The notes below the pieces were generated by a model that was not told the origin of the DNA, did not search any database, and saw only the letters and a list, made by a program, of their open reading frames with translations. Shown here one piece after another: positions 5,275 through 57,466 of a stretch of DNA of 64,000 nucleotides (its first letter is position 1; each line of letters starts with the position of its first letter). The stretch lies in assembly GCF_014230305.1 (NCBI RefSeq), contig NZ_JACLAU010000001.1, positions 186,001 through 250,000 on the forward strand, read 5' to 3'. This DNA is from Novosphingobium aerophilum (GTDB lineage Bacteria; Pseudomonadota; Alphaproteobacteria; Sphingomonadales; Sphingomonadaceae). Position numbers and translations under genes: made by a program.

Positions 5275-5360
5275 GGTGATTCTCCCGTTGTGTTGTTCTT
5301 CTTCGATTGTGCGCAGCATAAGGTGCAGCAGGGGATTCCCGAAGCGCAGCCAGGGTGATC

Positions 5361-5399
5361 GGATCGTCTGGTAATCCATTGCGGATCATCTGGCGATCC
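5361..5399. promoter_or_regulatory. Tandem 17-bp repeats, candidate operator
   Basis: Two copies of GGATC(G/A)TCTGG(T/C)(A/G)ATCC at 5361-5377 and 5383-5399, differing at three positions and spaced exactly 22 bp (two helical turns). Each unit is an imperfect palindrome bounded by GGAT/ATCC. They lie about 90-125 bp upstream of the amidohydrolase start, where a dimeric regulator could bind twice on one DNA face. The regulator is not identified. Confidence 0.5.
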
Positions 5400-29491: not shown

Positions 29492-30429
29492 ATGCAGCCA
29501 TGGGGATCAAGGCGCTTGGCTATGTCGTTGTGGAGACCGCCCGTCCCGCGGAGTGGGACCGCTTCCTGACGGCCTTCGTCGGCACCATGCGGGTGGCCGA
29601 CGCGGCCGACGGGGCAGCCCTGTACCGCGTCGATGACCGCGTGTTCCGCCTGCGCGTCCAGCCGGGCGAGCGCGAATGGTTCGTCGCCGCGGGCTACGAG
29701 GTGGACAGCCGTGCCGCGCTCGACGCCCTGGCCGACAAGGTGGCCGCGGCGGGACGCCCGGTCGACTGGGCCAGCGCCGGGGAAGCCGCCGGTCGCGGCG
29801 CCGAGGCGCTGTTCCGCACCACCGATCCGGCGGGCAACGGGCTGGAGCTCTATTGCGGCGACGCCCGCACTGCCGAACCCTTCGTCTCGCCGATCGGCGT
29901 GCCGGGCTTCGTCACCGGCGCCATGGGCATGGGCCATGCGGTGTTCTCCGCGCCCAACTTCAACGAAACGATTGCGTTCCATTGCGACGTGCTGGGTTTC
30001 CACCAGACCGACATGCCGCGCTTCCAACTGTTCGGACCGGAAGGCCCCTCGATGGGCTTTGCCTTCCTCCACGCCGACAACGGCCGCCACCATTCGATCG
30101 CCTTTGGCGAAGGCCCGATCCCGCCTTCGGGCGCGGTGCACATCATGCTCGAGCTGCCCAGCCTGATCGAGGTGGGCAAGGCGCACGACCGGATGAAGGC
30201 GATGGGCTATCCCGAAAGCGCCACCCTGGGGCGGCACGTCAATGACGAGACCACCGGTTTCTATGTGCAGACGCCGTCCGGCTTCGACCTGGAGATCGGG
30301 TGCGACAGCCTGGTGATCGATCCGGCCACCTGGCAGACCACCCGGCACGAGGCAATCAGCGTCTGGGGCCACGAATGGGCCTGGCAGAAGGCGATGAAGC
30401 AGCAGCAGGAACAAGGAGAACACGCGTGA
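29488..30429 (+). CDS. hsaC: Type I extradiol dioxygenase (HsaC/TesB-type)
   Basis: 313-residue two-domain vicinal-oxygen-chelate dioxygenase. Iron ligands H150 (GMGHAVF), H202 (NGRHHSIAF) and E269 (GFDLEIG) match BphC/HsaC. In steroid degradation it opens the catecholic ring A of the 9,10-seco intermediate (3,4-DHSA) with Fe(II) and oxygen; HsaD then hydrolyses the product. Start could be ATG 29488 (overlapping the SDR stop) or ATG 29500 (four residues shorter); neither ribosome site is decisive. The C-terminal tail is Q-rich (KQQQEQGEHA) and includes the strong ribosome binding site of ipdA. Confidence 0.88.
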   Translation: MNAAMGIKALGYVVVETARPAEWDRFLTAFVGTMRVADAADGAALYRVDDRVFRLRVQPGEREWFVAAGYEVDSRAALDALADKVAAAGRPVDWASAGEAAGRGAEALFRTTDPAGNGLELYCGDARTAEPFVSPIGVPGFVTGAMGMGHAVFSAPNFNETIAFHCDVLGFHQTDMPRFQLFGPEGPSMGFAFLHADNGRHHSIAFGEGPIPPSGAVHIMLELPSLIEVGKAHDRMKAMGYPESATLGRHVNDETTGFYVQTPSGFDLEIGCDSLVIDPATWQTTRHEAISVWGHEWAWQKAMKQQQEQGEHA

Positions 30430-31319
30430 CGGTGCCAGCCGGCCTCGACAAGCGGATGAGCGCGGCCGACATCGTCGCGCAGCTGGATGACGGGATGACC
30501 CTGGGCATCGGCGGCTGGGGCCCCCGGCGCAAGCCGATGGCGCTGGTCCGAGAGATCCTGCGGTCCGATCTCAAGGACCTGACCGTCGTGGCCTATGGCG
30601 GTGCGGATGTCGGCATGCTCTGCGCCGCGGGCAAGGTCCGCAAGCTGGTCTTCGCCTTCGTCAGCCTTGATGCCATTCCGCTGGAACCCTGGTTCCGCAA
30701 GAGCCGCGAGTCCGGGGCCCTCGAGGTGCTCGAACTGGACGAGGGCATGTTCCAGTGGGGGCTCAAGGCCGCGGCCTTCGGTCTGCCGTTCCTGCCCGCC
30801 CGGGTCGGCCTGGGCACCGACCTCGCCGAGCTGGGCGGATTGAAGACCGTGCAGAGCCCCTATGCCGATGGCGAGACGCTGATCGCCATGCCGGCGCTCA
30901 AGCTCGATGCGGCGCTGCTCCACGTCAACCGCAGCGACTGGCGCGGCAACGTCCACGTGTTCGGTCCGGACGTCTACTATGACGAATGGTTCGCCCGTGC
31001 GGCGGCCAAGACCTATGTCTCGTGCGAGGAGCTGGTCGATCGGATGGAGGATCACTATCCCGACCAGGCCCAGGCCAACATCGTCGAGCGCAGCTTCATT
31101 TCGGGCGTGGTCGAGATCCCGGGCGGGGCCCATCCCAGCTCGATGCCCCCGCACTATGGCTGGGACATGAAAGCGTTCAAGGCCTATGCCGATGCCGCCC
31201 GCGATCCGGGTGACTGGGCAGCGGTGCAGGACCGCTTCGTCGGCGCGTCGGAAACGGCCTATTGCGATACCTTTGGCGGAAAGGAGGCGGTGGCGGCTCT
31301 TCCGCTCCCGATTTTCTGA
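30426..31319 (+). CDS. ipdA: IpdA, alpha subunit of C-ring hydrolase (CoA-transferase fold)
   Basis: 297-residue protein with the IpdA pattern: GMTLGIGGWGPRRKPMA near residue 28, VVAYGGADVGMLCAAGKV, DEGMFQWGLKAAA and LIAMPALKLDAALLHVN. With IpdB it forms a heteromeric enzyme of the class I CoA-transferase fold that hydrolytically opens the last steroid ring in COCHEA-CoA, rather than moving CoA. The GTG start at 30426 is chosen because AAGGAG stands seven bases upstream and it overlaps the dioxygenase stop (GTGA). Often misnamed glutaconate CoA-transferase. ipdB follows with a one-base overlap. Confidence 0.93.
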   Translation: MTVPAGLDKRMSAADIVAQLDDGMTLGIGGWGPRRKPMALVREILRSDLKDLTVVAYGGADVGMLCAAGKVRKLVFAFVSLDAIPLEPWFRKSRESGALEVLELDEGMFQWGLKAAAFGLPFLPARVGLGTDLAELGGLKTVQSPYADGETLIAMPALKLDAALLHVNRSDWRGNVHVFGPDVYYDEWFARAAAKTYVSCEELVDRMEDHYPDQAQANIVERSFISGVVEIPGGAHPSSMPPHYGWDMKAFKAYADAARDPGDWAAVQDRFVGASETAYCDTFGGKEAVAALPLPIF

Positions 31320-32122
31320 TGACTGAACCCAGCCCCCCAGAAGCGAGCCTGGCAGAGCTCTGCATCTTCGCCTGTTCGGAAGCCTTTCGCGGCAATGGCG
31401 AGGTGATCGCCACCGGGGTCGGCCCGGTGCCGCGCCTGGCCGCCGGCCTCGCCAAGCTGACTCACAGCCCCGAGCTGATGATGACCGACGGCGAGGCCTA
31501 CCTGGTCGAGCAGCCGGTCCCGATCGGCCCGCGCGCCTATGACGATCGCAAGCCGGCCGGCTATCTGCCGTTCTCGCGCTTCTTCGACGCGGCGGTGTGG
31601 ACCGGGCGGCGCCATGCGATGGTCACGCCCACCCAGCTCGACCGCTTCGGCCAGATCAACCTGTCCTACATGGGCGGGACCTATGACAAGCCGAAGACCC
31701 AGATGCTGGGCGTGCGCGGCTTCCCGGGCAACACGATCTACCACCCCAACTCGTTCTTCTTCCCGGCCCATTCGCCCCGCGTCTTCGTGCCCGAGGTCGA
31801 CATGATCTCGGGCGTCGGCCACAACCCGGCCAAGCGCACGCCGGGCGGGAACTTCACCGGGGTGGACCTGCGGCTGATCGTCACGAACCTGTGCGTGATG
31901 GACTTCGGCGGCCCTGACCACGCGATCCGGGTGGTCTCGCTCCACCCCGGGGTGACCTTCGACGAGGTGCAGGCCGCCACCGGGTTCGAACTGGCCCGGG
32001 CCGAGACCCTGACCGAGACGCCCCTGCCCGATGCCGCAGCGCTGGAGATCATCGCCCGGCTCGATCCGCATGGCATCCGGACCAGCGTGATCAAGGACAA
32101 TCCGCCGGCGCGACAAGGGTGA
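31319..32122 (+). CDS. ipdB: IpdB, beta subunit of C-ring hydrolase (CoA-transferase fold)
   Basis: 267-residue partner of IpdA. ELMMTDGEAYLVEQP, QLDRFGQINLS, GVRGFPGNTIYH and DFGGPDHAIRVVSLHPGV are IpdB signatures. The ATG at 31319 shares a base with the ipdA stop, implying coupled translation and equal stoichiometry. The complex acts on the CoA-bound C-ring intermediate late in steroid degradation. Ten bases separate it from the enoyl-CoA hydratase gene. Confidence 0.93.
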   Translation: MTEPSPPEASLAELCIFACSEAFRGNGEVIATGVGPVPRLAAGLAKLTHSPELMMTDGEAYLVEQPVPIGPRAYDDRKPAGYLPFSRFFDAAVWTGRRHAMVTPTQLDRFGQINLSYMGGTYDKPKTQMLGVRGFPGNTIYHPNSFFFPAHSPRVFVPEVDMISGVGHNPAKRTPGGNFTGVDLRLIVTNLCVMDFGGPDHAIRVVSLHPGVTFDEVQAATGFELARAETLTETPLPDAAALEIIARLDPHGIRTSVIKDNPPARQG

Positions 32123-43233: not shown

Positions 43234-44688
43234 GTGGGCTGGCCCGAAATCCTGGCGGCGCTCGAAGCCAAGCGGGCCTTTTCCCGGCGGATGGGCGGGG
43301 ACGAGCGGCTGGCGCGCCATCATGCGGCGGGCAAGCTCGACGCGCGGGCACGGGCCGCGGCGCTGTTCGACGAGGGCCGCTTCGTCGAGATCGGGGCCCT
43401 GGCCGGCAACCGCAGCGAGGATGGCCCGGCTCCGGCCCCGGCCGATGGGCTGATCGCTGCCTTCGGGCAGGTGGGCGGTCGCCCGACCCTGGCCGGGATC
43501 GAGGATTTCACCGTGCTTGGCGGATCGATCGGCGATGCCGGATCGGCCAAGCGCCACCGGCTGGCCCAGCTCGCCCGGCAGGAGCGGGTGCCGCTGGTTT
43601 TCATGCTCGAAGGGGCGGGCCACCGGCTCGACAACCGGCACGGCACGCCCGCCCCCAACGATCTTCAGGCCCTGGTCGAGCTGTCCGGGCTGGTCCCGAT
43701 GGTCTGTCTGGTGCTGGGCGCTTCGGCCGGGCACGGCGCCCTGACCGCGCCGCTGAGCGATTTCGTGGTGATGACCCGCGCCGCAGCGATGTTCGTGGCC
43801 GGTCCGCCGCTGGTCAAGGCGGCCCTGGGCGAGACCGCGACCAAGGAGGAACTGGGCGGTCCCGCGGTCCATGTGGTCCAGTCCGGCGTCGCCCACAACC
43901 TGGCCGAGGACGATGCCGCGGCGATTGCCCTGGCGCGGCGCTGGCTGGGCTATGTTCCGGTCAACCGGGTTGCCGGGGATGATCAGGGCCCGCGCCGGAT
44001 CGAGGCGCTGCTCGATCTGATCCCGCCCGATCCGCGCGTGCCGTTCGACATGCGGCAGGTCCTGGCCCTGCTGGCCGATGCGGGCACCCTGCTGGAAGTG
44101 CAGCCCGACCATGGCGGGGCGGTGGTCACCGCACTGGCCCGGCTGGGCGGACTGGCCGTGGCGATCCTAGCCAACAACCCGGCGGTGGGCGCCGGGGCGA
44201 TCGACGCCGCGGCGGCCCAGAAGGCGACGCGGTTCCTCACCCGCGCCGAGGCCTTCGGCCTGCCGGTGATCTTCCTGGCCGACAATCCCGGGGTCCTGCC
44301 CGGCACCGCGGCAGAGCGCGCCGGGGCCCTGCGCCATGCCGCCGACATGTTCGCCGCGCAGCATCGCCTGACCGTGCCCAAGCTGCACGTGACGGTGCGC
44401 AAGGCGTTCGGCTTCGGGTCCTCGGTGATGGCGATGAACCCGTTCGACGGGCAGAGCCTCAACCTGGCCTTCCCTGCCGTCACCCTGGGCGCCATGCCCG
44501 CCGACAGCGGCGGCCGCGCCGCCGGGCTGGACGAGGCCGAGCGCGCCCGCATCGCCGCCGACCAGGCGGGCGGGGCGCTCAACCTGGCCGACCGGATGGT
44601 CTTCGACGACGTGATCGACCCGCGCGACCTGCGCAACGCCCTGCTCGACGGCCTGATGCTGGCCGCCAATCGCCTGCCGAAAGGATGA
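43234..44688 (+). CDS. Orphan acyl-CoA carboxyltransferase (carboxylase beta subunit)
   Basis: 484-residue carboxyltransferase-domain protein, somewhat short for the ~510-540 family norm. RLARHHAAGKLDARARAAALFD start, VLGGSIGDAGSAKRHR, oxyanion-type GAGHRLDN and GASAGHGAL glycine motifs, and FLADNPGVLPG with KAFGFGSSVMA in the C-half. Partners normally are a biotin carboxylase/BCCP subunit, which is not in this window. It may borrow a genomic alpha subunit, or act as a decarboxylase. Context: inside the C/D-ring operon, which releases propionyl-CoA. GTG start at 43234. Confidence 0.82.
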   Translation: MGWPEILAALEAKRAFSRRMGGDERLARHHAAGKLDARARAAALFDEGRFVEIGALAGNRSEDGPAPAPADGLIAAFGQVGGRPTLAGIEDFTVLGGSIGDAGSAKRHRLAQLARQERVPLVFMLEGAGHRLDNRHGTPAPNDLQALVELSGLVPMVCLVLGASAGHGALTAPLSDFVVMTRAAAMFVAGPPLVKAALGETATKEELGGPAVHVVQSGVAHNLAEDDAAAIALARRWLGYVPVNRVAGDDQGPRRIEALLDLIPPDPRVPFDMRQVLALLADAGTLLEVQPDHGGAVVTALARLGGLAVAILANNPAVGAGAIDAAAAQKATRFLTRAEAFGLPVIFLADNPGVLPGTAAERAGALRHAADMFAAQHRLTVPKLHVTVRKAFGFGSSVMAMNPFDGQSLNLAFPAVTLGAMPADSGGRAAGLDEAERARIAADQAGGALNLADRMVFDDVIDPRDLRNALLDGLMLAANRLPKG

Positions 44689-45085: not shown

Positions 45086-46288
45086 ATGCGTGAAGCAGCC
45101 ATCGTTTCGACCGCCCGCACGGGCGTGGGCAAAGCCTATCGCGGGGCGTTCAACGATACCGAGGCCCCGGTCCTCTCGGCCCACGTGGTCAATGCCGCGA
45201 TCGCGCGCGCCGGGATCGATCCGACGCGGGTCGATGACGTGTACCTGGGGGTGGGCAACCACTGGGGCACCCAGAGCTACAACCTCGGCCGGCTCACGGT
45301 CCACACCTCGTGCCTGCCCGACACCACCGGCGGCTTTACGCTCGATCGCAAGTGCTCGTCCGGGCTGAACGCCATCGCGCTGGCCGCGCGGGGGATCATC
45401 TGCAACGAGATCGACGTGGCCGTCGCCGGCGGCATGGAATCGGTCTCGCTCACGATCAACAAGCACGTTCCGGCGTTCCGCAACCGCTCCGAATTCGTCA
45501 AGCAGCACGATCCCTATGCCTACATGGTGATGATCGAGACCGCCGAGATTGTCGCCGAGCGCTATGGCGTCAGCCGAGAGGCGCAGGATCGCTTCGCCGC
45601 CCTGTCGCAGCAGCGCGCCGCCGCGGCCCAGGAGGCCGGGCGCTTTGCCGACGAGATCGTGCCGATCACGGTGACCAAGGCCCTGTTCGACAAGGAGGGC
45701 AACGAGACCGGCAAGGAAGAGGTCACGCTCGACCGCGACGAGGGCGTCCGGGCCGGCACCACTTACGAGGCGCTCGCCGGACTCAAGCCGGTGTTCAGGA
45801 ACGGGCAGGTCATTGCCGAGGGCAAGCACGTCACCGCCGGCAATGCCAGCCAGTTGTCTGACGGGGCCTCGGCCCAGGTCGTGATGGACCTGGCGACCGC
45901 GCAGAAGGAAGGCCTGCCGGTGCTGGGGCTTTATCGCGGGTTCCAGGTGGCCGGGTGCGGCGCGGACGAGATGGGCATCGGCCCGGTCTTCGCGATCCCC
46001 AAGCTGCTGGCCCGCGCCGGGCTCAAGCTCGACGACATCGGCCTGTTCGAGATCAACGAGGCCTTCGCCAGCCAGGCGGTCTATTGCCAGGAGAAGCTGG
46101 GGATCGATCCTGAGCGGCTCAACGTCAACGGCGGTGGCATCGCCATCGGCCATCCCTTCGGGATGACCGGGTCACGCCTGGTCGGCCATGCCCTGATCGA
46201 GGGGAAGCGCCGCGGGGTGAAGTATGTCGTGGTCTCGATGTGCGTGGCCGGCGGCATGGGCGCGGCCGGCCTGTTCGAAGTCGCCTGA
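45086..46288 (+). CDS. Acetyl-CoA acyltransferase (thiolase), second copy
   Basis: 400-residue thiolase. Nucleophile C90 in [30 protein letters not shown] with a catalytic-loop asparagine, [10 protein letters not shown] with the histidine and [12 protein letters not shown] with the second cysteine. Cleaves 3-ketoacyl-CoA; steroid thiolases FadA5 (side chain) and FadA6 (ring) are the natural comparison. With the FadA6-type protein at 37099 there are two thiolases, so this one likely handles a different chain. Preceded by AGAAGGACCC. Confidence 0.87.
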
Positions 46289-46310
46289 CGGGCCTGCGGA
46301 GACACAGCCG

Positions 46311-47867
<1,557 letters not shown>

Positions 47868-47891: not shown

Positions 47892-48686
47892 ATGAACGGC
47901 AAGGCGGGATCGGGGACGGGCGCAGGGTTTTCGGGCAAGGTCGTGCTGGTCACCGGGGCGGCCTCGGGCATCGGTCGCGCCGCGGCGATCCGCTTTGCCG
48001 AGGAGGGCGCGCGGGTGTTCTGCGCCGATCTCAACCTGGCCGGGGCCGAGGCGGTGGTGGCCGAGATCGGGGGAATGGCCGCGGCCGTCCCGGTCGATGT
48101 GGCTGACTCCGCCAGCAACCGGGCCATGGTCCAGACGGTGATCGATGCCGCCGGGCGGCTCGACGTGGCCTTCCTCAACGCCGGCTACTATGGCCAGGCC
48201 GACGGCCTCGCCACGGTCGACGAGGACCTGTTCGACCGGCTGGTCGCGATCAACCTGAAGGGCGTGTTCAACGGGATCAAGGCGGTCGAGCCGGTGATCG
48301 CCCAGGGCGGCGCCGTGGTGGTCACCGCGTCCGCGGCGGGGGTGATCGGCCATCCCGGCAATCCCGCCTACTGCGCGGCCAAGCACGGTGCGGTCGGCCT
48401 GGTGAAGTCCTGCGTCGATGCCTTCGCCGCGCGCGGGGCGCGGATCAACGCGATCTGCCCGGGCGGGGTGGAAACCCCGCTGGTCGGCGCGCCCGACGTG
48501 GCCATGGTGCCGGTGGGCGATCTGCCGCGCGTGCCGCTGCGCGGTTTCGGCCAGGCCCAGCACATTGCCGAGGTGGCCTTGTGGCTGGCCAGCCCCGCTG
48601 CCGGCTTCGTCAACGGCCAGGCCCAGGTGGTCGATGGCGGCCTGCTCTCCACCTTTGCGCCGGTGACCCTGCCGGTCGGCCCCTGA
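47892..48686 (+). CDS. SDR family oxidoreductase
   Basis: 264-residue SDR: TGAASGIG, CADLN (acidic, NAD), LNAGYYGQADG in the NNAG position, catalytic serine in TASAAG, YCAAK and VDGGLLSTF. ATG 47892 follows GGGAGAAACGG. Last enzyme before a 110-bp gap and the LuxE/LuxC pair. Probable 3-hydroxyacyl-CoA or hydroxysteroid dehydrogenase. Confidence 0.83.
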   Translation: MNGKAGSGTGAGFSGKVVLVTGAASGIGRAAAIRFAEEGARVFCADLNLAGAEAVVAEIGGMAAAVPVDVADSASNRAMVQTVIDAAGRLDVAFLNAGYYGQADGLATVDEDLFDRLVAINLKGVFNGIKAVEPVIAQGGAVVVTASAAGVIGHPGNPAYCAAKHGAVGLVKSCVDAFAARGARINAICPGGVETPLVGAPDVAMVPVGDLPRVPLRGFGQAQHIAEVALWLASPAAGFVNGQAQVVDGGLLSTFAPVTLPVGP

Positions 48687-48796: not shown

Positions 48797-50218
48797 ATGT
48801 CCATTGCCGCCGCCCAGCTCCACCCTGGCCTGGCTGCCCTGCTCGAGGGCGATTTCGGGCGAGGCTACCGGATGGCCCGCGCCGAGCGCGAGCCGCTCCA
48901 GCTTGCCTCCCTGCGCGATCGCTTCGCCGCGCTGCGCGGGCCGATCGGGGCGCTGGGCCGCCTGGCCGATGAGCAGGGCCTGGCCGACATCACCTGGCTC
49001 GAGGATGTCGTGCCGCTGCTGTTCCCGCACACGGTCTACAAGTCCTATCCGCTGTCCTTCCTCGAACAGGGTCGGTTCGACCGGTTGACGCGGTGGCTGG
49101 ACGGATTGACCACGCTGGATCTGTCCGGCTTCGACAGCGCCGGGATCGACACGATCGATGACTGGGTGCGCCGGCTCGACGCGCAGACCGAGCTGGCCGT
49201 GATCCACACCTTCGGAACCAGCGGCAAGCTGTCGTTCCTGCCGCGCACCAAGGCCCATACGCCGCTGGCGGTGGCGCTCAATGCCCGGGCGATCCGGGAT
49301 TTCCACGGCCACGGTTCGGGCCCGGACCTGCTGGTCGAACGGCGGCCGGTGATCTCGCCATCCTATCGCCTGGGTGCGAGCTCGATCGCGCGGGGCATGG
49401 CCCGGATGGCGCAGGACTATGCCGGCGGGCTCGACCAGGCCTTGTTCCTTTATCCCGACGCCTGGTTCAGCGCAGATGTCGCCTCGCTCGCCGGGCGGAT
49501 CAAGGCGGCCGAGGCGCGCGGCGAGATGGGGCAGTTGCAGATCTCGCCCGCCCTGCTGGCCCGCCGCGCCGAGTTCGCGGCCCGGGAGGCGAGCCGTGCC
49601 GAGGACATGGACCGCTTCTTCGCCGAGGCCTCGCGCCGCTTCGCCGGGCAGGACGTGTTCCTCTTCGCGGTCTGGCCGATCCTGTTCGAATGGGCCGAGG
49701 AGGGCCTGCAGCGCGGGCTGCGCGGACTGTTCGGGCCGGGCAGCGTCCTGACCACCGGCGGCGGATCGAAGGGCCGCGTCCTGCCGCCCGACTACAAGGA
49801 CCGGATTTTCGAGTTCCTCGGGTTCGAGCGCCACTTCGAATTCTTCGGGATGAGCGAACTGATGGCCAATGCGCCCCGCTGCGAGGCGGGCCATTTCCAC
49901 TTCCCGCCGCTGGTCGTGCCCTTCGTGCTCGATCCCGAGACCGGGGCCTGCCTCCCGCGCCAGGGCACCCACACCGGTCGGCTGGCGCTGATGGACCTGG
50001 TGCCGGAAAGCTATTGGGGCGGGTTCGTGACCGGCGACGAGGTGACCCTGAGCGGTTGCGACGATGTGCCCTGCGCTTGTGGCCGCACCGGTCCGCGGCT
50101 CCACCCCGAGATCCGCCGCTTCAGCGAGGCGCGCGGGGGTGACGACAAGATCAACTGCGCCGGCGCGCCCGAGGCCCATGACCGGGCGGTGGACTTCCTG
50201 CTGGAGCAGGCCCGGTGA
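48797..50218 (+). CDS. luxE: LuxE-like acyl-protein synthetase
   Basis: 473-residue member of the LuxE/acyl-protein synthetase family within the adenylating superfamily. HTFGTSGKLSFLPRTK is the adenylate (P-loop-like) segment, FLYPDAWFSADV and GGSKGRVLPPDY core motifs, EFFGMSELMAN the adenylation-enzyme mid motif, and PCACGRTGPRLHPEIRRFSEARGGDDK...NCAG with a late cysteine that could carry the acyl thioester. In luminous bacteria LuxE activates a fatty acid with ATP and passes it via a cysteine thioester to LuxC. Here it precedes a LuxC-like gene (4-bp overlap). ATG 48797 follows GGGAG. The 110-bp gap upstream, largest in the operon, could hold an internal promoter. Confidence 0.75.
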   Translation: MSIAAAQLHPGLAALLEGDFGRGYRMARAEREPLQLASLRDRFAALRGPIGALGRLADEQGLADITWLEDVVPLLFPHTVYKSYPLSFLEQGRFDRLTRWLDGLTTLDLSGFDSAGIDTIDDWVRRLDAQTELAVIHTFGTSGKLSFLPRTKAHTPLAVALNARAIRDFHGHGSGPDLLVERRPVISPSYRLGASSIARGMARMAQDYAGGLDQALFLYPDAWFSADVASLAGRIKAAEARGEMGQLQISPALLARRAEFAAREASRAEDMDRFFAEASRRFAGQDVFLFAVWPILFEWAEEGLQRGLRGLFGPGSVLTTGGGSKGRVLPPDYKDRIFEFLGFERHFEFFGMSELMANAPRCEAGHFHFPPLVVPFVLDPETGACLPRQGTHTGRLALMDLVPESYWGGFVTGDEVTLSGCDDVPCACGRTGPRLHPEIRRFSEARGGDDKINCAGAPEAHDRAVDFLLEQAR

Positions 50219-51696
50219 GCGCGGCGGCGGAGGCCAGCTACCGGGTGCCGCTGCTGCTGCGCGGCGAGATCGTCGAGGGCGGGGACATGGCCTTCGGCGG
50301 GCGGCGCGGCGGGGTGTCCTTCACCGCGCCGGACGTGGCCGGGCACCTCGGCAAGCTGGTCCTGTCCACGCCGTCGCGGATGGCGGACATCGCCGGCCTG
50401 CCGTTCGCCGAGATCGAGCGGTTCCTGGCCGCGCTGGGGGAACGGCTCGATCCCGCGACCAATCCCCACCTGGCCGAGGCCTTCGCGCTGGCCTGCCACA
50501 CCTCGGGCCTGTCGCGCAGCCTGCTGGTGGAGTACTATCGCGGCATTCCCGGCATGCTCCAGCCCGACGCGGTGCGCGACGTGGCCGAGCGAATGGTCGG
50601 GCTGGACTACCTCAACGGCTGGGTCGAGCAGCCGCGCGGACGCAACCGCCACGGCACCCTGCGGATCCGCGCGGTCGGCTCGCGCGCGGTCCATATCATT
50701 GCGGGCAATGTGCCGGTGGTCGGCGTCGCGACCGTGCTGCGCAATGCGATCACCCGGTCGGATGCGATCATCAAGACCCCGTCCAACGATCCGCTGACCG
50801 CCGCGGCTATCGTCCGGACCATGATCGAGCTCGATCCCGGGCACCCGATCACGCGACACACCAGCGTGGCTTACTGGAAGGGCGGCGATGCGCGGATCGA
50901 GGACGCGCTGTATGATCCCCGCCGGATCGAGAAGATCGTCGCCTGGGGCGGTTTCGCCGGTATCCGGCACCTGACGCAGTACCTGCAGCCGGGGCTGGAC
51001 CTGATCACGCTGGACCCCAAGCACTCGTCCTCGCTGATCGGGCCCGAGGCCTTCGCCGACGAGGCGACCCTGCACGAGGTGGCGCTCCGGCTGGCGCTCG
51101 ACATCGGGACGATGAACCAGGAGGGCTGCGTCAACGCCCGGGTGATCTATGTGCTGTCGGGCACCGATCCGGCCGGTCTCGAACGGGCGAACCGGCTTGG
51201 CGCCGCGACTTACGCTGCGCTCCAGCGCCTGCCCGACAGCGTGTCCACTCCGCACAAGGCCTTCGACCGCGACCTGCGCGAGGAGATCGCCGCGCTGGCC
51301 TTTGTCCCCGATGCCTACCGCGTGTTCGGTGGCCAGGGGAACGAGGGCGCGCTGATCGTGTCGCAGGACGGCGCCCCGGTGGACTTCGCCCGCCAGTTGG
51401 CCTGCCGGGTCGGCAACATCGTCCCGATCGACCGGGTCGAGGAGGCGATCCTGTCGGTCAACGCCTATACCCAGACGATCGGCATCTATCCCGATAGGCT
51501 GAAGGCATCGGTCCGCGACCGGCTGGCCTGGCAGGGAGCCCAGCGGCTGGTGTCATTGGGCGGTGCCGGGCTGGACCAGACGCCCGGTCCCCAGGACGGG
51601 ATCGAGCCGCTCCGCCGCATGGTCAAGTGGATCACCGACGAGGATCTGGGCGCGGAAACCTTCGCGCCGTTCCGGGCGGGTCAGGAACCGCGCTAG
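50215..51696 (+). CDS. luxC: LuxC-like acyl-CoA/acyl-protein reductase
   Basis: 493-residue LuxC-type reductase of the aldehyde-dehydrogenase superfamily. GNVPVVGVATVLRNAITRSDAIIKTPSNDPLTA is the family core, IVAWGGFAGIRHL follows, MNQEGCVNARVIYV carries the probable catalytic cysteine, and VGNIVPIDRVEEAILSVNAYTQTIG the C-terminal part. LuxC reduces an acyl group handed over by LuxE to an aldehyde with NADPH. GTG start at 50215 overlaps the luxE stop (GTGA). Stop TAG at 51694-51696 overlaps the stop of the converging TetR gene in a CTAG palindrome. Substrate here unknown, plausibly a steroid-derived carboxylic acid. Confidence 0.8.
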   Translation: MSAAAEASYRVPLLLRGEIVEGGDMAFGGRRGGVSFTAPDVAGHLGKLVLSTPSRMADIAGLPFAEIERFLAALGERLDPATNPHLAEAFALACHTSGLSRSLLVEYYRGIPGMLQPDAVRDVAERMVGLDYLNGWVEQPRGRNRHGTLRIRAVGSRAVHIIAGNVPVVGVATVLRNAITRSDAIIKTPSNDPLTAAAIVRTMIELDPGHPITRHTSVAYWKGGDARIEDALYDPRRIEKIVAWGGFAGIRHLTQYLQPGLDLITLDPKHSSSLIGPEAFADEATLHEVALRLALDIGTMNQEGCVNARVIYVLSGTDPAGLERANRLGAATYAALQRLPDSVSTPHKAFDRDLREEIAALAFVPDAYRVFGGQGNEGALIVSQDGAPVDFARQLACRVGNIVPIDRVEEAILSVNAYTQTIGIYPDRLKASVRDRLAWQGAQRLVSLGGAGLDQTPGPQDGIEPLRRMVKWITDEDLGAETFAPFRAGQEPR

Positions 51697-52361
51697 CCGG
51701 GCCGTCCGAAAGCGGCGATCAGACCGCCGACCAAGCGGCTCTGTTCGGTCAGCAGCTCGGGCTCCGCGCATCCCGCGCCGAGCAGCGACTGCAGCAGCGG
51801 CGCCGCGGCGAAATAGCCGAACAGCACATTGAACACGGCGATGACCTGCAGGCCCAGCAGGCCATCAGCCATGTCATAGCCGGCCTTGCGGGTCAGCCGG
51901 CGGCCATAGTCGACCAGTTGCCCAAGCCACTGCACGGCGATGGCATCGGTTTCGGTCGCGGGACTGGTGGCGGCGCGGACCAGCAAGCGCGCGATGTTGG
52001 GGTGCAGCGCCAGCAGGTCGATCATGCGGTCGGTCAGGTCGGCGGGCACGGCGGTCAGGTCGGGCTGGGCGAGAACGCCGTCCATCAGATCGAACAGCGG
52101 ACGCAGCGCGCGTTCGAACACGGCCCGGTAAAGCTCCTCCTTGCCGGCGAAGTGGCGGTACAGGCCCGGCTGCTGGATGCCCACGGCCGTGGCGATATCG
52201 CGCAAAGACGTCCCGGCAAAGCCGTGCTGGGCGAACAGCGCCTCGGCCTCGTCGAGAATGCGCGCCGTGGTCCGCTCACCCTTGGCGGGGCGATGGGGAT
52301 GCCGGGGGGGATGCCGGGGGGGACGCCGGAGGGGAGACAGCGGAGCGTTCGGCATGGTCAT
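51693..52361 (-). CDS. TetR family transcriptional regulator
   Basis: About 222 residues. Helix-turn-helix in ARILDEAEALFAQHGFAGTSLRDIATAVGIQQPGLYRHF, typical TetR DNA-binding region, then a C-terminal ligand-binding helical domain. The N-terminal tail has a PRHP repeat (from GGGGATGCC-type DNA repeats, 52291-52333) and may not be part of the fold. Start ATG 52361 or 52355, weak ribosome site. Convergent with luxC. Candidate regulator of the steroid operons and of the recurring TTGCGTA motif, but no direct evidence. Confidence 0.82.
   Translation of the reverse strand: MTMPNAPLSPLRRPPRHPPRHPHRPAKGERTTARILDEAEALFAQHGFAGTSLRDIATAVGIQQPGLYRHFAGKEELYRAVFERALRPLFDLMDGVLAQPDLTAVPADLTDRMIDLLALHPNIARLLVRAATSPATETDAIAVQWLGQLVDYGRRLTRKAGYDMADGLLGLQVIAVFNVLFGYFAAAPLLQSLLGAGCAEPELLTEQSRLVGGLIAAFGRPG
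52291..52333. repeat. Short GGGGATGCC-type tandem repeat within tetR start
   Basis: Three imperfect copies of a unit near GATGCCGGGGGG in the N-terminal codons of the TetR gene, encoding PRHP-like repeats. Slippage-prone in this GC-rich stretch. Not a CRISPR array (units are contiguous and short). Confidence 0.5.
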
Positions 52362-52413
52362 GGGGCAACCATGCCGCGCCGCCCGCCGGAATGCAAAGCG
52401 AGCGGGACGCCAC

Positions 52414-52812
52414 TCAGTGCCCGCCCAGCATCTGCACGTTCTCACACAGGGCGCCCTCGGGATCGACCGAGAAGACCACCCTTACGCCGTGCTCCGGCTC
52501 GTTCCGGATCGGGCCGACCAGCCGGCCGCCGTTGGCCTCGATCCGCGTGACCAGATCGTCGAGATCGGCCACGGTGAAACCCAGGATCACCTGCTGGTCG
52601 CGCGGGGCCTCGCGCGCGGTGAAGTTGAACATCACCAGCGACCCCTTGGTCCAGTCGCCTCCGGGCGCGAGGATCACCTCGCGGTAGGGTTCGCCATCGC
52701 TGTCGCCGGCAACGCGCTGGACCACGTCAAGGCCATAGACCGCGCCGTAATAGGCGGCCATCGCCTCCTCGTCGCGACAGATCAGCTTGGTGAACAGACC
52801 GAGTGCGGTCAT
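52414..52812 (-). CDS. VOC family protein (glyoxalase/dioxygenase fold)
   Basis: 132-residue vicinal-oxygen-chelate protein: GLFTKLICRDEEAMAAYYGAVYGLDVV start, QVILGFTVADLDDLVTRIEANGG core, FSVDPEGALCENVQM end. One betaalphabetabetabeta module pair. VOC proteins include extradiol dioxygenases, glyoxalases and isomerases; metal ligands cannot be fixed by eye. 25 bp upstream of the BVMO gene on the same strand order, so possibly co-transcribed. Confidence 0.75.
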   Translation of the reverse strand: MTALGLFTKLICRDEEAMAAYYGAVYGLDVVQRVAGDSDGEPYREVILAPGGDWTKGSLVMFNFTAREAPRDQQVILGFTVADLDDLVTRIEANGGRLVGPIRNEPEHGVRVVFSVDPEGALCENVQMLGGH

Positions 52813-52837: not shown

Positions 52838-54325
52838 TCAGGCCGGCACCTGGCCTCCGAACAGATCGTATTCCTCCAGCCGCGGCCGGCTCATCGCATC
52901 GGCGAAGTCGTCGTAGGACCAGGGCCAGCTTGCCGGCACGCCCTCATCGTCGAGGTACCAGCTGGTGCAGCCGGATCCGAAGATCGTCCGCCGGGCGGCG
53001 GCGATGCGGCGTTCCTCGTAATCGGCGTGGGCGGCCACCGACGGAGCGACCGAGCGGGCGCCCCCCCGTCGGATGAGGTCGACCAGTTGGTCGATGTAGT
53101 CCCACTGGCGCTCGGCGATGTCGATCAGCGAGAAGTTGCCGACCGGACCGGTCGGGCCGTTGAGCATGAAGAAATTGGGGAACCCCGGCAGCGTCACCGC
53201 ATAATGCGCGGTCGGGCGGCGGGCCCAGAACTGGTCGAGCGTCAGTCCGCCCTGGCCGGTCACGCCGGCCGGGCGGATGAAGCGATCGGCCTGGAAGCCG
53301 GTGGCCAGGATCAATGTGTCCAGCTCATGCAGGGTGCCGTCGGCCATGCGCACCCCCTGCGGTTCGACCCGCGCGATCCGTCCGGTCTCGACATGGACCG
53401 CCGGATGCTGGACCTCCTGGTAATAGCACCACGAATAGATCAGCCGCTTGCACGCCGCGCGATAATTGGGCCGCAGCTTTTCCTTCAGCTCGCCCTCGGG
53501 CAGCGAGGTTTCGAAGTGTTCGCGGCAGATGTCCTCCACCTGCTTCATGTCGGGGCCGTCGATGTCCATGATCGCCCGGGTGAAGCGGCGCACATTGCCC
53601 ATGTACTCGTCCGAGAACCGGATCGCGTCGATCAACGCGGGATCGGCGCGGAAGGCGGCGCGGTCCTCGTCGGAATAGGTGTGGTAGGGCACCGGCATGA
53701 TCCACTGCGGCGAGCGCTGGAAATGGACCAGCCGATCGACCTGCTTGTTGATCGCGGTGACGATCTGGATCCCGGTCGAGCCCGACCCGATCAACCCGAC
53801 CCGCGCCCCGGCGATCGGCGCGTCGTCGTTCCAGCGCGCGGTGTGGAAGGCCGGTCCGGCGAAGCTGTCGAGGCCCTCGATCTCGGGCAGGCGCGGATGG
53901 TGCAGCACCCCCGAGGCGACGATCACCACGTCGAACACCTGACGCTCGCCTCCGGCCAGGGTCAGGGTCCAGGTGTGACCGGTCTCGTCCCAGTCGAGCC
54001 CGGTCACCTCGGCGTTGAAGCGGATCGCGGGCCCGATGCCGTACCGGTCGACCAGCCCTTCGAAGTAGCGCTGGATCTCGGGCCCGGTCGCATAGAGCGC
54101 GCTCCACTCGGGGTAGGGCGCGAAGGAGAAGGTGTAGGCATGGGCCGGCACGTCGCAGGTCAGCCCGGGATAGCGGTTCTCCCGCCAAGTGCCGCCGATC
54201 CGTCCGGCCTTCTCGAACACGGTGTAGCGCTCACCGCGCTCCTGCAGCTTGATCGCGGCCAGGATGCCGGCCATGCCGGCGCCGACGACCGCGAAGCGCA
54301 GTCCGGAAGGGGTGGGGTCCGTCAT
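52838..54325 (-). CDS. Baeyer-Villiger-type flavin monooxygenase
   Basis: 495-residue FAD/NADPH monooxygenase. FAD motif GAGMAG at 15-20, the Baeyer-Villiger fingerprint FxGxxxHxxxW at 155-165 (FAGPAFHTARW), a GTWRENRYPGLTCD segment of the family and a second Rossmann motif GSGSTGIQ for NADPH. Enzymes of this type insert oxygen next to a ketone, e.g. in the D-ring 17-ketone or an acyl side chain of steroids; which ketone is used here is inference. 53 bp after an SDR gene on the minus strand. Confidence 0.85.
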   Translation of the reverse strand: MTDPTPSGLRFAVVGAGMAGILAAIKLQERGERYTVFEKAGRIGGTWRENRYPGLTCDVPAHAYTFSFAPYPEWSALYATGPEIQRYFEGLVDRYGIGPAIRFNAEVTGLDWDETGHTWTLTLAGGERQVFDVVIVASGVLHHPRLPEIEGLDSFAGPAFHTARWNDDAPIAGARVGLIGSGSTGIQIVTAINKQVDRLVHFQRSPQWIMPVPYHTYSDEDRAAFRADPALIDAIRFSDEYMGNVRRFTRAIMDIDGPDMKQVEDICREHFETSLPEGELKEKLRPNYRAACKRLIYSWCYYQEVQHPAVHVETGRIARVEPQGVRMADGTLHELDTLILATGFQADRFIRPAGVTGQGGLTLDQFWARRPTAHYAVTLPGFPNFFMLNGPTGPVGNFSLIDIAERQWDYIDQLVDLIRRGGARSVAPSVAAHADYEERRIAAARRTIFGSGCTSWYLDDEGVPASWPWSYDDFADAMSRPRLEEYDLFGGQVPA

Positions 54326-54379: not shown

Positions 54380-55153
54380 TCAATACAATCCCGCACCGCC
54401 GTTGACGTGGAACACCTGGCCGGTGATCCAGCGGCCGTCCTCCGAAAGCAGGTGCGCCGCCATCGCGGCGATGTCGCTGGCCTGGCCCAGCCGGGTGCTG
54501 CGGGTGGCGCGGATGCAGTGCGCGATCCAGTCCTCCGGCACCTGGCCCCCGGCGATCATTTCCGGGGTCATCACGAAGCCCGGGGCAATGGCATTGGCGG
54601 TCAGGCCGTGCTTGCCCCACTTGCTGGCGACATGGCGCATCAGCGCATTGATCCCGCCCTTCGACACCGCATAGCTCGGCCGCTCCGGCTCGCCCGCATC
54701 GGCCGCGTCGGAACTGGTGTAGACGATCGCGCCGCCGCGGGCGCTGGCCAGCAGGTGCGGCAGCGCGGCCCGGGTGCACAGCAGGTGACCGCGCAGGTTG
54801 ACCGCCAGGGTGCGGTCGAACACGTCGAGATCGACCGCTAGGGCGTCGCTGTCGCGAAAGATCGTGCGCAGGTCGGCCGCGTTGACATGGGCCCCGTCGA
54901 GGCCGCCAAGCCGCTCCACCGCGGCGGCGAAGGCGCCTTGCACCGAGGCCTCGTCGACGATGTCGACCTCGACCGCGAAGGCCTCGTGCCCTTCGCTCGC
55001 GAGTCGGGTGGCCAGGGCCTCGGCGGCAGCCAGGTTGATGTCGGCCAGGCAGACCCGCGCGCCTTCCGCGCAGAGCCGTTCGGCCGTGGCGGCGCCGATC
55101 CCGGTTCCGGCTCCCACCACGATGATGGCCCGTCCGGCCAACCTGTCGCGCAT
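54380..55153 (-). CDS. SDR family oxidoreductase
   Basis: 257-residue SDR: GAGTGIG (one residue off TGxxxGIG), LADINL acidic (NAD), HVNAADL in the NNAG position, catalytic serine in TSSDAA and YAVSK. VNGGAGLY end. ATG 55153 (MRDRLAGRA) gives the family start. Divergent from the OYE gene across 177 bp; upstream of the BVMO gene, likely same transcript. Substrate unknown. Confidence 0.82.
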   Translation of the reverse strand: MRDRLAGRAIIVVGAGTGIGAATAERLCAEGARVCLADINLAAAEALATRLASEGHEAFAVEVDIVDEASVQGAFAAAVERLGGLDGAHVNAADLRTIFRDSDALAVDLDVFDRTLAVNLRGHLLCTRAALPHLLASARGGAIVYTSSDAADAGEPERPSYAVSKGGINALMRHVASKWGKHGLTANAIAPGFVMTPEMIAGGQVPEDWIAHCIRATRSTRLGQASDIAAMAAHLLSEDGRWITGQVFHVNGGAGLY

Positions 55154-55182
55154 CCGTCGCCCCCGCCATTCCTCTTGATTAT

Positions 55183-55212
55183 CGTAGAATGATCCCGCAT
55201 TGATTACGCAAT
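55183..55212. promoter_or_regulatory. CGTAGAAT / TACGCAAT motif pair in divergent region
   Basis: CGTAGAAT (55183-55190) and TACGCAAT (55205-55212) in the 177-bp region between the SDR and OYE genes. The arrangement parallels the pair at 544-572. Candidate operator shared by the island. Confidence 0.5.
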
Positions 55213-55330
55213 GGCAAGCCAAAACGGCTAGGGAAGAGGATAAATGCGCTCCATTCGCCGGCCGACTGCATCTGATGCCAGATCAGCGCGCCGGGTTCCT
55301 CCCGCGCTCCACTGAAGGACCAAGACGGCC

Positions 55331-57466
55331 ATGGCCTCGAACCTCTATCCCCATCTGCTGGCCCCGGGCCGCATCGGCACGCTGGAGCTGAAGAACCGCA
55401 TCGCGGTGACGGCGATGGGTGTCAGCCTGTCCGAGGACGATGGCACCGTGGGGGAACAGTTGATCGCCTACCACGAGGAACAGGCGCGCGGCGGCGCGGG
55501 CCTGATCATCTGCGGCGTGGCCGGGGTGGCCTGGCCGGTTGGCGCGGTGGCGGTGGGCCAGACCGCGATTTCGGACGACCGCTTCATTCCCGGGTTGCGC
55601 CAACTGACCGACCGGGTCCACGCCGCGGGCGGCAAGATCGCCACCCAGTTGCACCATGGTGGTTTCGTCGCGGGCTATTCGCACGCGCGCTGGGGCCATC
55701 CGTTGTGGGGTCCGGCGATCCCGCCGGCGCCCAAGGGCAATTTCACCGACTATTTCCTGACCGAGGAGCTTGCCCGGCTCGCCGGGATGAAGGCGCCCGA
55801 GATCAAGGTGCTGGAACAGGCCGATATCGATCTGGCGGTCAGCCAGTTCGCGGCCGGTGCCCGCCGCGCCAAGGAGGCCGGGTTCGACGGCATCGAGATC
55901 CACGGCGGCCATGGCTACCTGCTGTCGTCATTCACCTCGCCTTACACCAACACCCGCACGGACCAGTACGGCGGCAGCGTCGAGAACCGCCTGCGCCTGA
56001 CGCTGGAGGTGATCGCCGCGATCCGCGCGGAGGTGGGTCGAGACTTTCCGCTGTGGATCAAGCTCGACTCGCGCGAAGTGGGCAAGCCGGGCGGTATCAC
56101 CATGGAGATGGCGAAGGAGGCGGCGCGCCTGGTTGAGGCGGCCGGGGTCGATGCGATCACCGTCACCGCCTATCACGACACCGGGCAGGGCAAGCTCCAT
56201 TCGGAATCGAACATCCCCCACGTCGAGAACACCAACCTTCCGGCCACGGCCGAGCTGCGCAAGGTCGTGTCGATCCCGGTGATCGGATCGGGCCGGATCG
56301 AGGTGGCCACCGCCGACGAGACCATCGGCCGGGGCGAGGCCGATTTCATCGCGATGGGGCGCAAGCTGCTGGCCGATCCGCACCTGCCCGCCAAGCTCGC
56401 CGCGGGCGAGCCGGACAAGGTGCGGCCCTGCATCTATTGCTACACCTGCGTCAGCGCGATCTACATGGGCGAGCCGGCGCGCTGCGCGGTCAACTCCTCG
56501 CTCAGCTTCGAATTCCGCGGCGAACCCGGACCGGCGCCGGCCGGCGCCGCTCCGGTCGCGGTCATCGGGGGTGGCCCGGGCGGCATGGAGGCCGCCCGCA
56601 AGCTGGCCGGGCTGGGCTACAAGGTCACCCTGATCGAAAAGTCCGACCGTCTCGGCGGGACCCTGCGGTTCGCCAGCCTGGCCTACGAGCCGAACGAGCG
56701 CATCCTCGAATGGTTGCGGCGCGAGGTGCGGGATGCCGGGGTCGAGGTGCGCTTGGGCACGGTTGCCACGCCGGCATTGCTGCGCGAGATCGGCGCCCGG
56801 CATGTGATCGTCGCGACCGGGGCGAACCGCGGGATGCCGCCGATCCCGGGCAACGATCAGGACCACGTGTTTTCGGGCGACGATATGCGACGGATGATGC
56901 TGGGCGAAAGCTCGGACGAGCTGAAGCGCAAGACCGGCCTGTTCACCCGCCTTGCCACCAAGGTCGGGGCGGCGACCGGCGCCACGGCCAATCTCGCGCT
57001 GGTGCGCAAGGCGACCCACACCTGGATGCCGCTGGGCGAATCGATCGCGATCATCGGCGGCGAGCTGGTCGGGCTCGAGCTGGCCGAGTTCCTGACCGAG
57101 CGCGGCCGCAAGGTCCAGGTGATCGAGGAGGCGCCCCGGCTCGGCAAGGGCCTGACCCTGGTCCGGCGGATGCGCTTGCTGGCCGAACTGGCCGAGCACG
57201 GCGTGGGGCTCCATGGCGGGGCGACCGGGGTGACGATCGGCAAGGACAGCGTCTCGTTCACCGATGTCAAGGGCGAAGCGCGCACCGTTCCGGCCGATCA
57301 CGTCATCGTTGCCCGGGGCGCCGAAGGCGATCTCAGCCTGGCGCAGGCGCTCGAGAGCGAGGGCTTCACCGTGCACAGCGTCGGCGATGCGCTGGGCGTG
57401 GGCTACATCGAAGGGGCGATCCGGGGCGCGGGCGAAGCGGTCCGGGCCGTGGCCAGCGCCGCCTGA
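55331..57466 (+). CDS. NADH:flavin oxidoreductase / dienoyl-CoA reductase-type (OYE family)
   Basis: 711-residue fusion of an FMN TIM-barrel (residues about 1-370) and an FAD/NAD pyridine nucleotide domain. Barrel: HHGGF, EIHGGHGYLLSSFTSP and GSGRIEVATADE. Iron-sulfur cysteines CIYCYTC...ARC near residues 375-395 with spacing CX2CX2CX11C. FAD-binding AVIGGGPGGMEAARKL and a later IIGGELVGLELAEFL. The same architecture as 2,4-dienoyl-CoA reductase and BaiCD/BaiH, which reduce or oxidise delta4/delta6 double bonds in bile acids. Followed 16 bp later by an Lrp-type regulator gene. Confidence 0.85.
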   Translation: MASNLYPHLLAPGRIGTLELKNRIAVTAMGVSLSEDDGTVGEQLIAYHEEQARGGAGLIICGVAGVAWPVGAVAVGQTAISDDRFIPGLRQLTDRVHAAGGKIATQLHHGGFVAGYSHARWGHPLWGPAIPPAPKGNFTDYFLTEELARLAGMKAPEIKVLEQADIDLAVSQFAAGARRAKEAGFDGIEIHGGHGYLLSSFTSPYTNTRTDQYGGSVENRLRLTLEVIAAIRAEVGRDFPLWIKLDSREVGKPGGITMEMAKEAARLVEAAGVDAITVTAYHDTGQGKLHSESNIPHVENTNLPATAELRKVVSIPVIGSGRIEVATADETIGRGEADFIAMGRKLLADPHLPAKLAAGEPDKVRPCIYCYTCVSAIYMGEPARCAVNSSLSFEFRGEPGPAPAGAAPVAVIGGGPGGMEAARKLAGLGYKVTLIEKSDRLGGTLRFASLAYEPNERILEWLRREVRDAGVEVRLGTVATPALLREIGARHVIVATGANRGMPPIPGNDQDHVFSGDDMRRMMLGESSDELKRKTGLFTRLATKVGAATGATANLALVRKATHTWMPLGESIAIIGGELVGLELAEFLTERGRKVQVIEEAPRLGKGLTLVRRMRLLAELAEHGVGLHGGATGVTIGKDSVSFTDVKGEARTVPADHVIVARGAEGDLSLAQALESEGFTVHSVGDALGVGYIEGAIRGAGEAVRAVASAA

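Follow-up and report, generated by a model that had tools for sequence, protein, structure and literature searches.

A putative carboxylic acid reductase of LuxE/LuxC type behind a steroid C/D-ring operon of Novosphingobium aerophilum

What is a gene pair related to the fatty acid reductase of luminous bacteria doing at the end of a steroid degradation operon? In a 64,000-nucleotide stretch of Novosphingobium aerophilum DNA (contig NZ_JACLAU010000001.1; hereafter, the window), genes for a LuxE-like acyl-adenylating protein and a LuxC-like acyl-thioester reductase follow an ipd-type operon for the steroid C and D rings. A sequence-only reading of this DNA had taken the pair for an integral part of that operon, converting a carboxylic acid to an aldehyde. 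We consider it somewhat probable that the two proteins form a two-part carboxylic acid reductase, which steroid degraders of one clade have taken up as an accessory function in steroid catabolism. We are surer of the enzyme class than of the substrate, which most likely would be a steroid or steroid-derived (side-chain) acid. What is new here is a variant; the enzyme class is already known.

The LuxC-like protein (50215-51696, + strand; 493 amino acids) is readily recognized as a reductase of this class, presumably NAD(P)H dependent. It belongs to family PF05893 (E = 6.7e-38; 131 bits, with a curated cut-off of 21) and matches Photobacterium LuxC (PDB 7xc6_A) at E = 2.1e-33. Cys305, in its NQ-x-x-C motif, is kept in all 79 aligned rows and aligns with the DQQAC of 7xc6_A; we take this cysteine to be catalytic, as in LuxC.

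The LuxE-like protein (48797-50218, + strand; 473 amino acids) is harder to place. No Pfam family, including LuxE (PF04443), matches it up to E = 10, and a single-sequence search of the PDB gave no match up to E = 1. A profile of 43 family sequences finds the LuxE chain 7xc6_E (E = 1.4e-5) and a phenylacetate-CoA-ligase-like protein (6.1e-6), and weak Pfam matches occur among the 43 relatives, seven of them to LuxE (best 0.0014) and nine to AMP-binding. Its AlphaFold model contains an adenylating domain (predicted local distance difference test score [pLDDT], 88; predicted template modeling score, 0.88). VIA-align superimposes the model on a PaaK-like acyl-CoA ligase (Z = 24.2; root mean square deviation [rmsd], 3.2; 316 aligned residues), and the match to 7xc6_E (Z = 13.0; rmsd, 1.6) covers 117 of the 118 residues of the library chain, indicating a shared adenylating fold. 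The GGG-x-K motif and the family motif H-x-PP-W (PP-L in the window protein) likewise align with 7xc6_E. Matches to PaaK-type structures break off near residue 340 of about 430, short of their C-terminal subdomain; the LuxE-like protein thus lacks this CoA-ligase subdomain. Just beyond lies Cys454, which is invariant in 43 of 43 relatives. In true LuxE, a cysteine near the C terminus accepts the acyl group, and by analogy Cys454 may be the acyl acceptor; the LuxE cysteine could not be aligned with it, and confidence in the model is low in this region (residues 449-457, pLDDT <50). Could the LuxE label be wrong? By family models, this is not a classic LuxE, but the adenylating fold is related to both PaaK and LuxE, and we have kept the name LuxE-like. 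The enzyme class assigned earlier is borne out by the LuxC family membership and by the LuxE-like fold with its conserved C-terminal cysteine, while the lack of a Pfam LuxE match tells against a strict LuxE label.

From these parts, a reaction sequence can be proposed. The LuxE-like protein, with ATP, would convert a free carboxylic acid to acyl-AMP, and the acyl group would move to Cys454 of the same protein. The LuxC-like protein would take the acyl group on its Cys305 and reduce it with NAD(P)H, releasing an aldehyde. Putative in this scheme are the steroid nature of the acid, the acyl transfer, the choice of cofactor, and the independence of CoA.

Phylogeny ties the pair to steroids. A pattern scan of an 84,980-species collection yielded 79 LuxE/LuxC-like loci, and in the LuxE tree (96 rows, with support from the Shimodaira-Hasegawa-like approximate likelihood ratio test only), the window sequence and eight others form a clade with support of 98. 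The others come from Sphingomonas formosensis, two Rhodospirillales metagenome-assembled genomes (MAGs), Novosphingobium sp. B 225 (G034), a Pseudomonadota MAG, a Thauera MAG, Burkholderiaceae bacterium 16, and a Proteobacteria MAG, so that the clade spans alpha- and betaproteobacteria. All nine genomes have ipdB, that is, N. aerophilum itself and 8 of the 8 others (at 57-82%). In the surrounding 17-member clade, ipdB at a level of at least 54% occurs in 12 of 15 genomes tested, the clade's 8 included, and one more has it at 42%; outside the 17 members, it occurs in 6 of 35 genomes, with three more at 40-45% (8/8 versus 6/35, p = 2e-5). Gene neighborhoods tell a similar story. Steroid orthologues (at least 50%) lie within 10 kb of five of the eight non-window clade loci, compared with none of seven sister loci, none of 64 other LuxE loci (p = 4e-6), and one of 20 comparison regions (p = 0.003). 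In Thauera, LuxC-LuxE lies immediately ahead of hsaC-ipdA-ipdB homologues, and in Burkholderiaceae bacterium 16 the pair is near 56-59% homologues of the window genes that Pfam matches mark as HsaE/F/G type, with a PF00724 homologue beside it. The LuxE and LuxC trees recover the same 12-member clade, and thus the pair appears to have been inherited together. The link of this clade to steroid genes stands; a link of the wider LuxE/LuxC family does not, given the 0 of 64 other loci. We also considered a housekeeping locus: one deep-clade locus (L072) lies near release-factor and methyltransferase genes, a setting different from that of the window clade.

How closely is the pair joined to the operon ahead of it? 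Open reading frame calling and coding-type codon composition back both frames, and GTGA at 50215-50218 is common to the LuxE-like stop and the LuxC-like GTG start, an overlap the sequence-only reading had described correctly. Every called gene from 28679 to 51696 is on the + strand, with the pair at the end of the run, which holds the 23 genes proposed (a count that takes the region at about 34.9-37.1 kb as two acyl-CoA dehydrogenase frames, a split inferred from relatives) and matches an ipd-type C/D-ring set. Equally, the statement that luxA and luxB are missing agrees with the neighbors scanned, none of which is luciferase-like. The gap ahead of the LuxE-like gene is 110 bases long, and we found no sigma-70-like promoter or terminator in it; a single transcript for the upstream operon and the pair is therefore likely, as judged from the DNA.

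The operon itself (28679-48686, + strand), assigned by Pfam, NCBIfam, and PDB matches and by homologous operons, encodes an HsaC-type extradiol dioxygenase, enoyl-CoA hydratases, thiolases, IpdE1/E2-like dehydrogenases, short-chain dehydrogenases/reductases (SDRs), and FadD3. We read 30300-31316 as IpdA (best PDB match 6co6_A, 1.1e-78) and 31262-32119 as IpdB (6con_B, 8.7e-56), taking these entries to be IpdAB. A nitronate-monooxygenase-family protein occupies the IpdC position, and several of the Ipd names are presumptive, resting in part on gene order. The FadD3-type acyl-CoA ligase (46224-47867, +; above the NCBIfam cut-off for NF005801) has homologues in other operons and is the usual end of an ipd operon. 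The SDR directly ahead of the pair (47892-48686, +) has 81-82% homologues that follow FadD3 in three other genomes, without the pair there. Between MaoC and ketosteroid isomerase genes lies a carboxyltransferase gene (43234-44688; PF01039, 6.8e-87) that is unmatched at E = 1e-10 in 20 ipd stretches of other genomes; on this comparison, it is apparently a second insertion specific to the lineage.

Several observations weigh against the reading favored here, and against a pair integral to the operon. The LuxE-like protein is far removed from true LuxE, and the LuxC-like protein scores 142.6 bits against the long-chain fatty-acyl LuxC equivalog NF052251, far below its cut-off of 750. The nine LuxE-clade members form no exact clade in the LuxC tree, and ipdB is missing from G017 (57%, an incomplete genome) and from L114 and L116 of the 17-member clade. 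Three of the eight clade loci (L106, L107, and L109) are without a steroid orthologue inside 10 kb, L109 having one slightly beyond. At E = 1e-10, neither LuxE nor LuxC is matched in any of the 20 ipd stretches from other genomes, some of them not full length, while 12 of them have a FadD3 homologue of at least 55%. Among 148 relatives, IpdB of at least 56% occurs in 22 (own genome counted), of which N. aerophilum and its sister Novosphingobium G034 alone have a window-type LuxE, and in G034 the pair is 29 kb away from ipdB. A survey of 396 evenly drawn Sphingomonadales genomes (thresholds, E = 1e-80 for IpdB and 1e-130 for LuxE) found IpdB in 38 and LuxE in 5, namely, these same two and three of another genus, whose LuxE is 51-54% identical and in which IpdB was not found at E = 1e-80. 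With the pair in only 2 of the 38 ipdB-positive genomes, steroid growth can evidently do without it. The sister pairs L276, L277, and L278 (50-54% LuxE identity), in genomes without ipdB, have no steroid orthologue nearby; they adjoin an amidohydrolase resembling window 3535-5379, which suggests that they may serve another role. Judged by this distribution, the pair is a rare accessory, and we reject it as a core gene of the ipd operon. What the sequence-only reading proposed survives in part: the enzyme class, the clade's steroid tie, and the nearby Baeyer-Villiger enzyme hold, and the pair as an integral operon part does not.

Downstream, the genes turn to the opposite strand. A TetR regulator (51693-52445, -; PF00440) is convergent with the LuxC-like gene and overlaps its end. 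It is followed by a small glyoxalase-like (vicinal oxygen chelate) protein (52414-52812, -), a type I Baeyer-Villiger monooxygenase (BVMO) of the progesterone (pdc) type (52838-54325, -), an SDR (54380-55222, -; 77% to the SDR next to the BVMO on pNL2), and a flavoprotein resembling old yellow enzyme and dienoyl-CoA reductase (55331-57466, +; PF00724), with 66-77% homologues near the ipd operons of relatives. The BVMO, 1.1 kb from the LuxC-like gene, carries the fingerprint FAGPAFHTARW and is 79.8% identical to SARO_RS19410 on pNL2 of Novosphingobium aromaticivorans. By position and TetR neighbor, SARO_RS19410 is presumably Saro_3708, which the portion of the Caenibius work cited here names a homologue of the Caenibius progesterone BVMO (PMC12239570). 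The window TetR is no orthologue of the one beside the pNL2 BVMO (36% over 67 amino acids only).

The Baeyer-Villiger enzyme noted earlier is thus real by its fingerprint, and it recurs near the pair in relatives. Orthologues (55-71%) occur no farther than about 16 kb away in L039, L220, L223 (Thauera), L227, and L229, and in L229 LuxE-LuxC-BVMO are on one strand with 22 bases between LuxC and BVMO. A BVMO or luciferase-like monooxygenase (LLM) lies within 10 kb in five of nine clade loci, above both the 20 comparison regions (1/20, p = 0.005) and the other LuxE loci (8/63, p = 0.008); the counts elsewhere are 2 of 7 sister loci and 2 of 16 ipd stretches. For the LuxE family as a whole, we rejected a BVMO linkage, there being no excess over the comparison regions (8/63 versus 1/20, p = 0.68). 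BVMO, a LuxR-type regulator, and LLM are near the pair in G034 and G151. In L227, an LLM (60.8% to the pNL2 LLM) adjoins LuxC-LuxE on the same strand, but a strong intrinsic-terminator-like GC-rich hairpin with eight T behind it (L227:4790-4929, -) lies between LLM and LuxC, and we do not propose an LLM-LuxC-LuxE operon there.

Does the BVMO act on the product of the pair? As one form of the acid reductase we favor, it may tentatively be proposed that the BVMO turns the aldehyde into a formate ester, giving an alcohol one carbon shorter and a ketone. As an equally tentative example, a C22 20-carboxylate would yield progesterone, a 20-ketone, and this BVMO would in turn open progesterone to a 17-acetate. 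BVMO action on steroid aldehydes is expected from general chemistry; a literature search on BVMO action on aldehydes gave no directly useful paper. Besides the recurrent gene order, this coupling gains from a Thauera MaoC-DUF35 protein, likely a canonical side-chain hydratase, which has no full-length match in six of the nine clade genomes: a 356-amino-acid piece of it finds full-length matches in Thauera and G154, half in G155, and parts in the other six. DUF35 proteins as such occur in all nine, which says little about the canonical aldolase route. It also gains from Caenibius, where the BVMO and LLM of the pdc cluster make testosterone acetate from progesterone (PMC12239570). Against it, BVMO orthologues are frequent in genus genomes without the pair, where progesterone use explains them, and the proximity may simply come from both lying in a common steroid region. 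The own genome has no pdc-type LLM at E = 1e-80, other LuxE clades show no enrichment, and no BVMO fingerprint protein is found in the stretches read of L107 and L111, while in L106 the sole such protein is distant (31%) and lies 13 kb off. We rate the coupling lower because of the hairpin that splits LLM from LuxC in L227. A full "steroid lux" route, in which a free side-chain acid is reduced to the aldehyde and then converted by the BVMO to a formate ester, losing one carbon without CoA beta-oxidation or aldolase, is in our view unlikely.

Two other explanations concern the substrate. The pair might be a general-purpose acid reductase, transferred next to steroid genes and acting on fatty, aromatic, or terpenoid acids. 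This fits a family with multiple copies in the genus (as many as 10 matches in a single genome), set in various catabolic and even polyketide surroundings, and it fits a pair that is rare in steroid degraders, whose ipd operon is complete without it. However, the close clade combines ipdB in every genome with recurrent steroid neighbors, which other clades do not, and we regard this explanation as somewhat unlikely. Alternatively, LuxC could act on steroid acyl-CoA from beta-oxidation, with LuxE only reactivating hydrolyzed acids and the aldehyde passing to an alcohol as overflow or detoxification. The Pfam name of PF05893 is acyl-CoA reductase, the upstream operon is CoA based, and in two Rhodospirillales loci (L217 and L229) LuxE has a gene of the zinc-type dehydrogenase family nearby. 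Yet LuxE and LuxC are paired throughout the clade, which fits acyl transfer between them, and oxygenases are among the recurring neighbors; an acyl-CoA substrate strikes us as quite improbable.

The wider family also offers some observations of its own. N. aerophilum has two more LuxE/LuxC pairs at 31-35% identity (L038 and L037; G000:C46:27940-30605 and G000:C31:399008-401691), one near a cytochrome P450 and an alpha/beta hydrolase and the other near a TauD dioxygenase. Pairs from Hodarchaeota/Heimdallarchaeota (Asgard archaea) MAGs (L121, L126-L131, L138, L149, and L171) form a single clade, and several of these loci have neighbors of similar size in common. L048, L052, L053, L061, and L075 have a LuxE-like gene with no LuxC match within the stretch read; L066, L069, and L070 have tandem LuxE genes; and L043:14331-16844 is an 838-amino-acid LuxC-like open reading frame with about 340 additional residues at its end.

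What would an acid reductase mean for steroid degradation? Among open-licence papers, we found none linking LuxE and LuxC with steroid degradation, which is no proof of absence, and none on LuxE, or on an acyl-protein synthetase with an acyl-CoA reductase, in Novosphingobium. In the part of a review drawn on here, the enzymes of bile-acid side-chain degradation in Sphingomonadaceae are described as yet unknown and the elucidation of this process as a key aspect (PMC8399759), and excerpts of a 2026 Caenibius tardaugens paper still report no induced aldolase for the side-chain step (PMC12882949). The closest relatives of the pair are in steroid degraders, several near a BVMO, a pattern suggestive of a side branch of steroid breakdown that has yet to be described. 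A LuxC/LuxE pair that moves with steroid genes and a BVMO is a testable side-chain candidate for a minority of degraders. If it proves true, LuxCE chemistry would reach beyond bioluminescence into catabolism, and the pair might serve as a CoA-free biocatalyst for steroid acids. Were the full route with the BVMO to operate as well, C22 acids would end up as progesterone-type ketones, and for a minority of strains this could be one explanation of the Sphingomonadaceae side-chain pathway.

The pair can finally be set beside four known systems. The pdc progesterone cluster of Caenibius tardaugens consists of BVMO, TetR, LuxR, and LLM in the available text of PMC12239570, where no LuxC/LuxE is described; the window BVMO is of the same type by identity and fingerprint, but the genome is without the LLM and the window TetR is no counterpart of the one on pNL2. 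PaaK-type acyl-CoA ligases are the best structural matches of the LuxE-like protein, which differs in having an invariant Cys454 instead of the C-terminal CoA-ligation subdomain. Carboxylic acid reductases share the expected overall reaction from acid to aldehyde, whereas the window pair consists of two separate open reading frames with no carrier domain in Pfam scans. The LuxC-LuxE fatty acid reductase of luminous bacteria (7xc6) has the same arrangement of an adjacent adenylating protein and a Cys-dependent reductase, with clear LuxC homology, a related LuxE fold, and the GGG-x-K motif; in contrast to it, the window pair has a PaaK-like adenylating protein missed by PF04443, no luciferase genes among the neighbors scanned, and a link to steroid genes.

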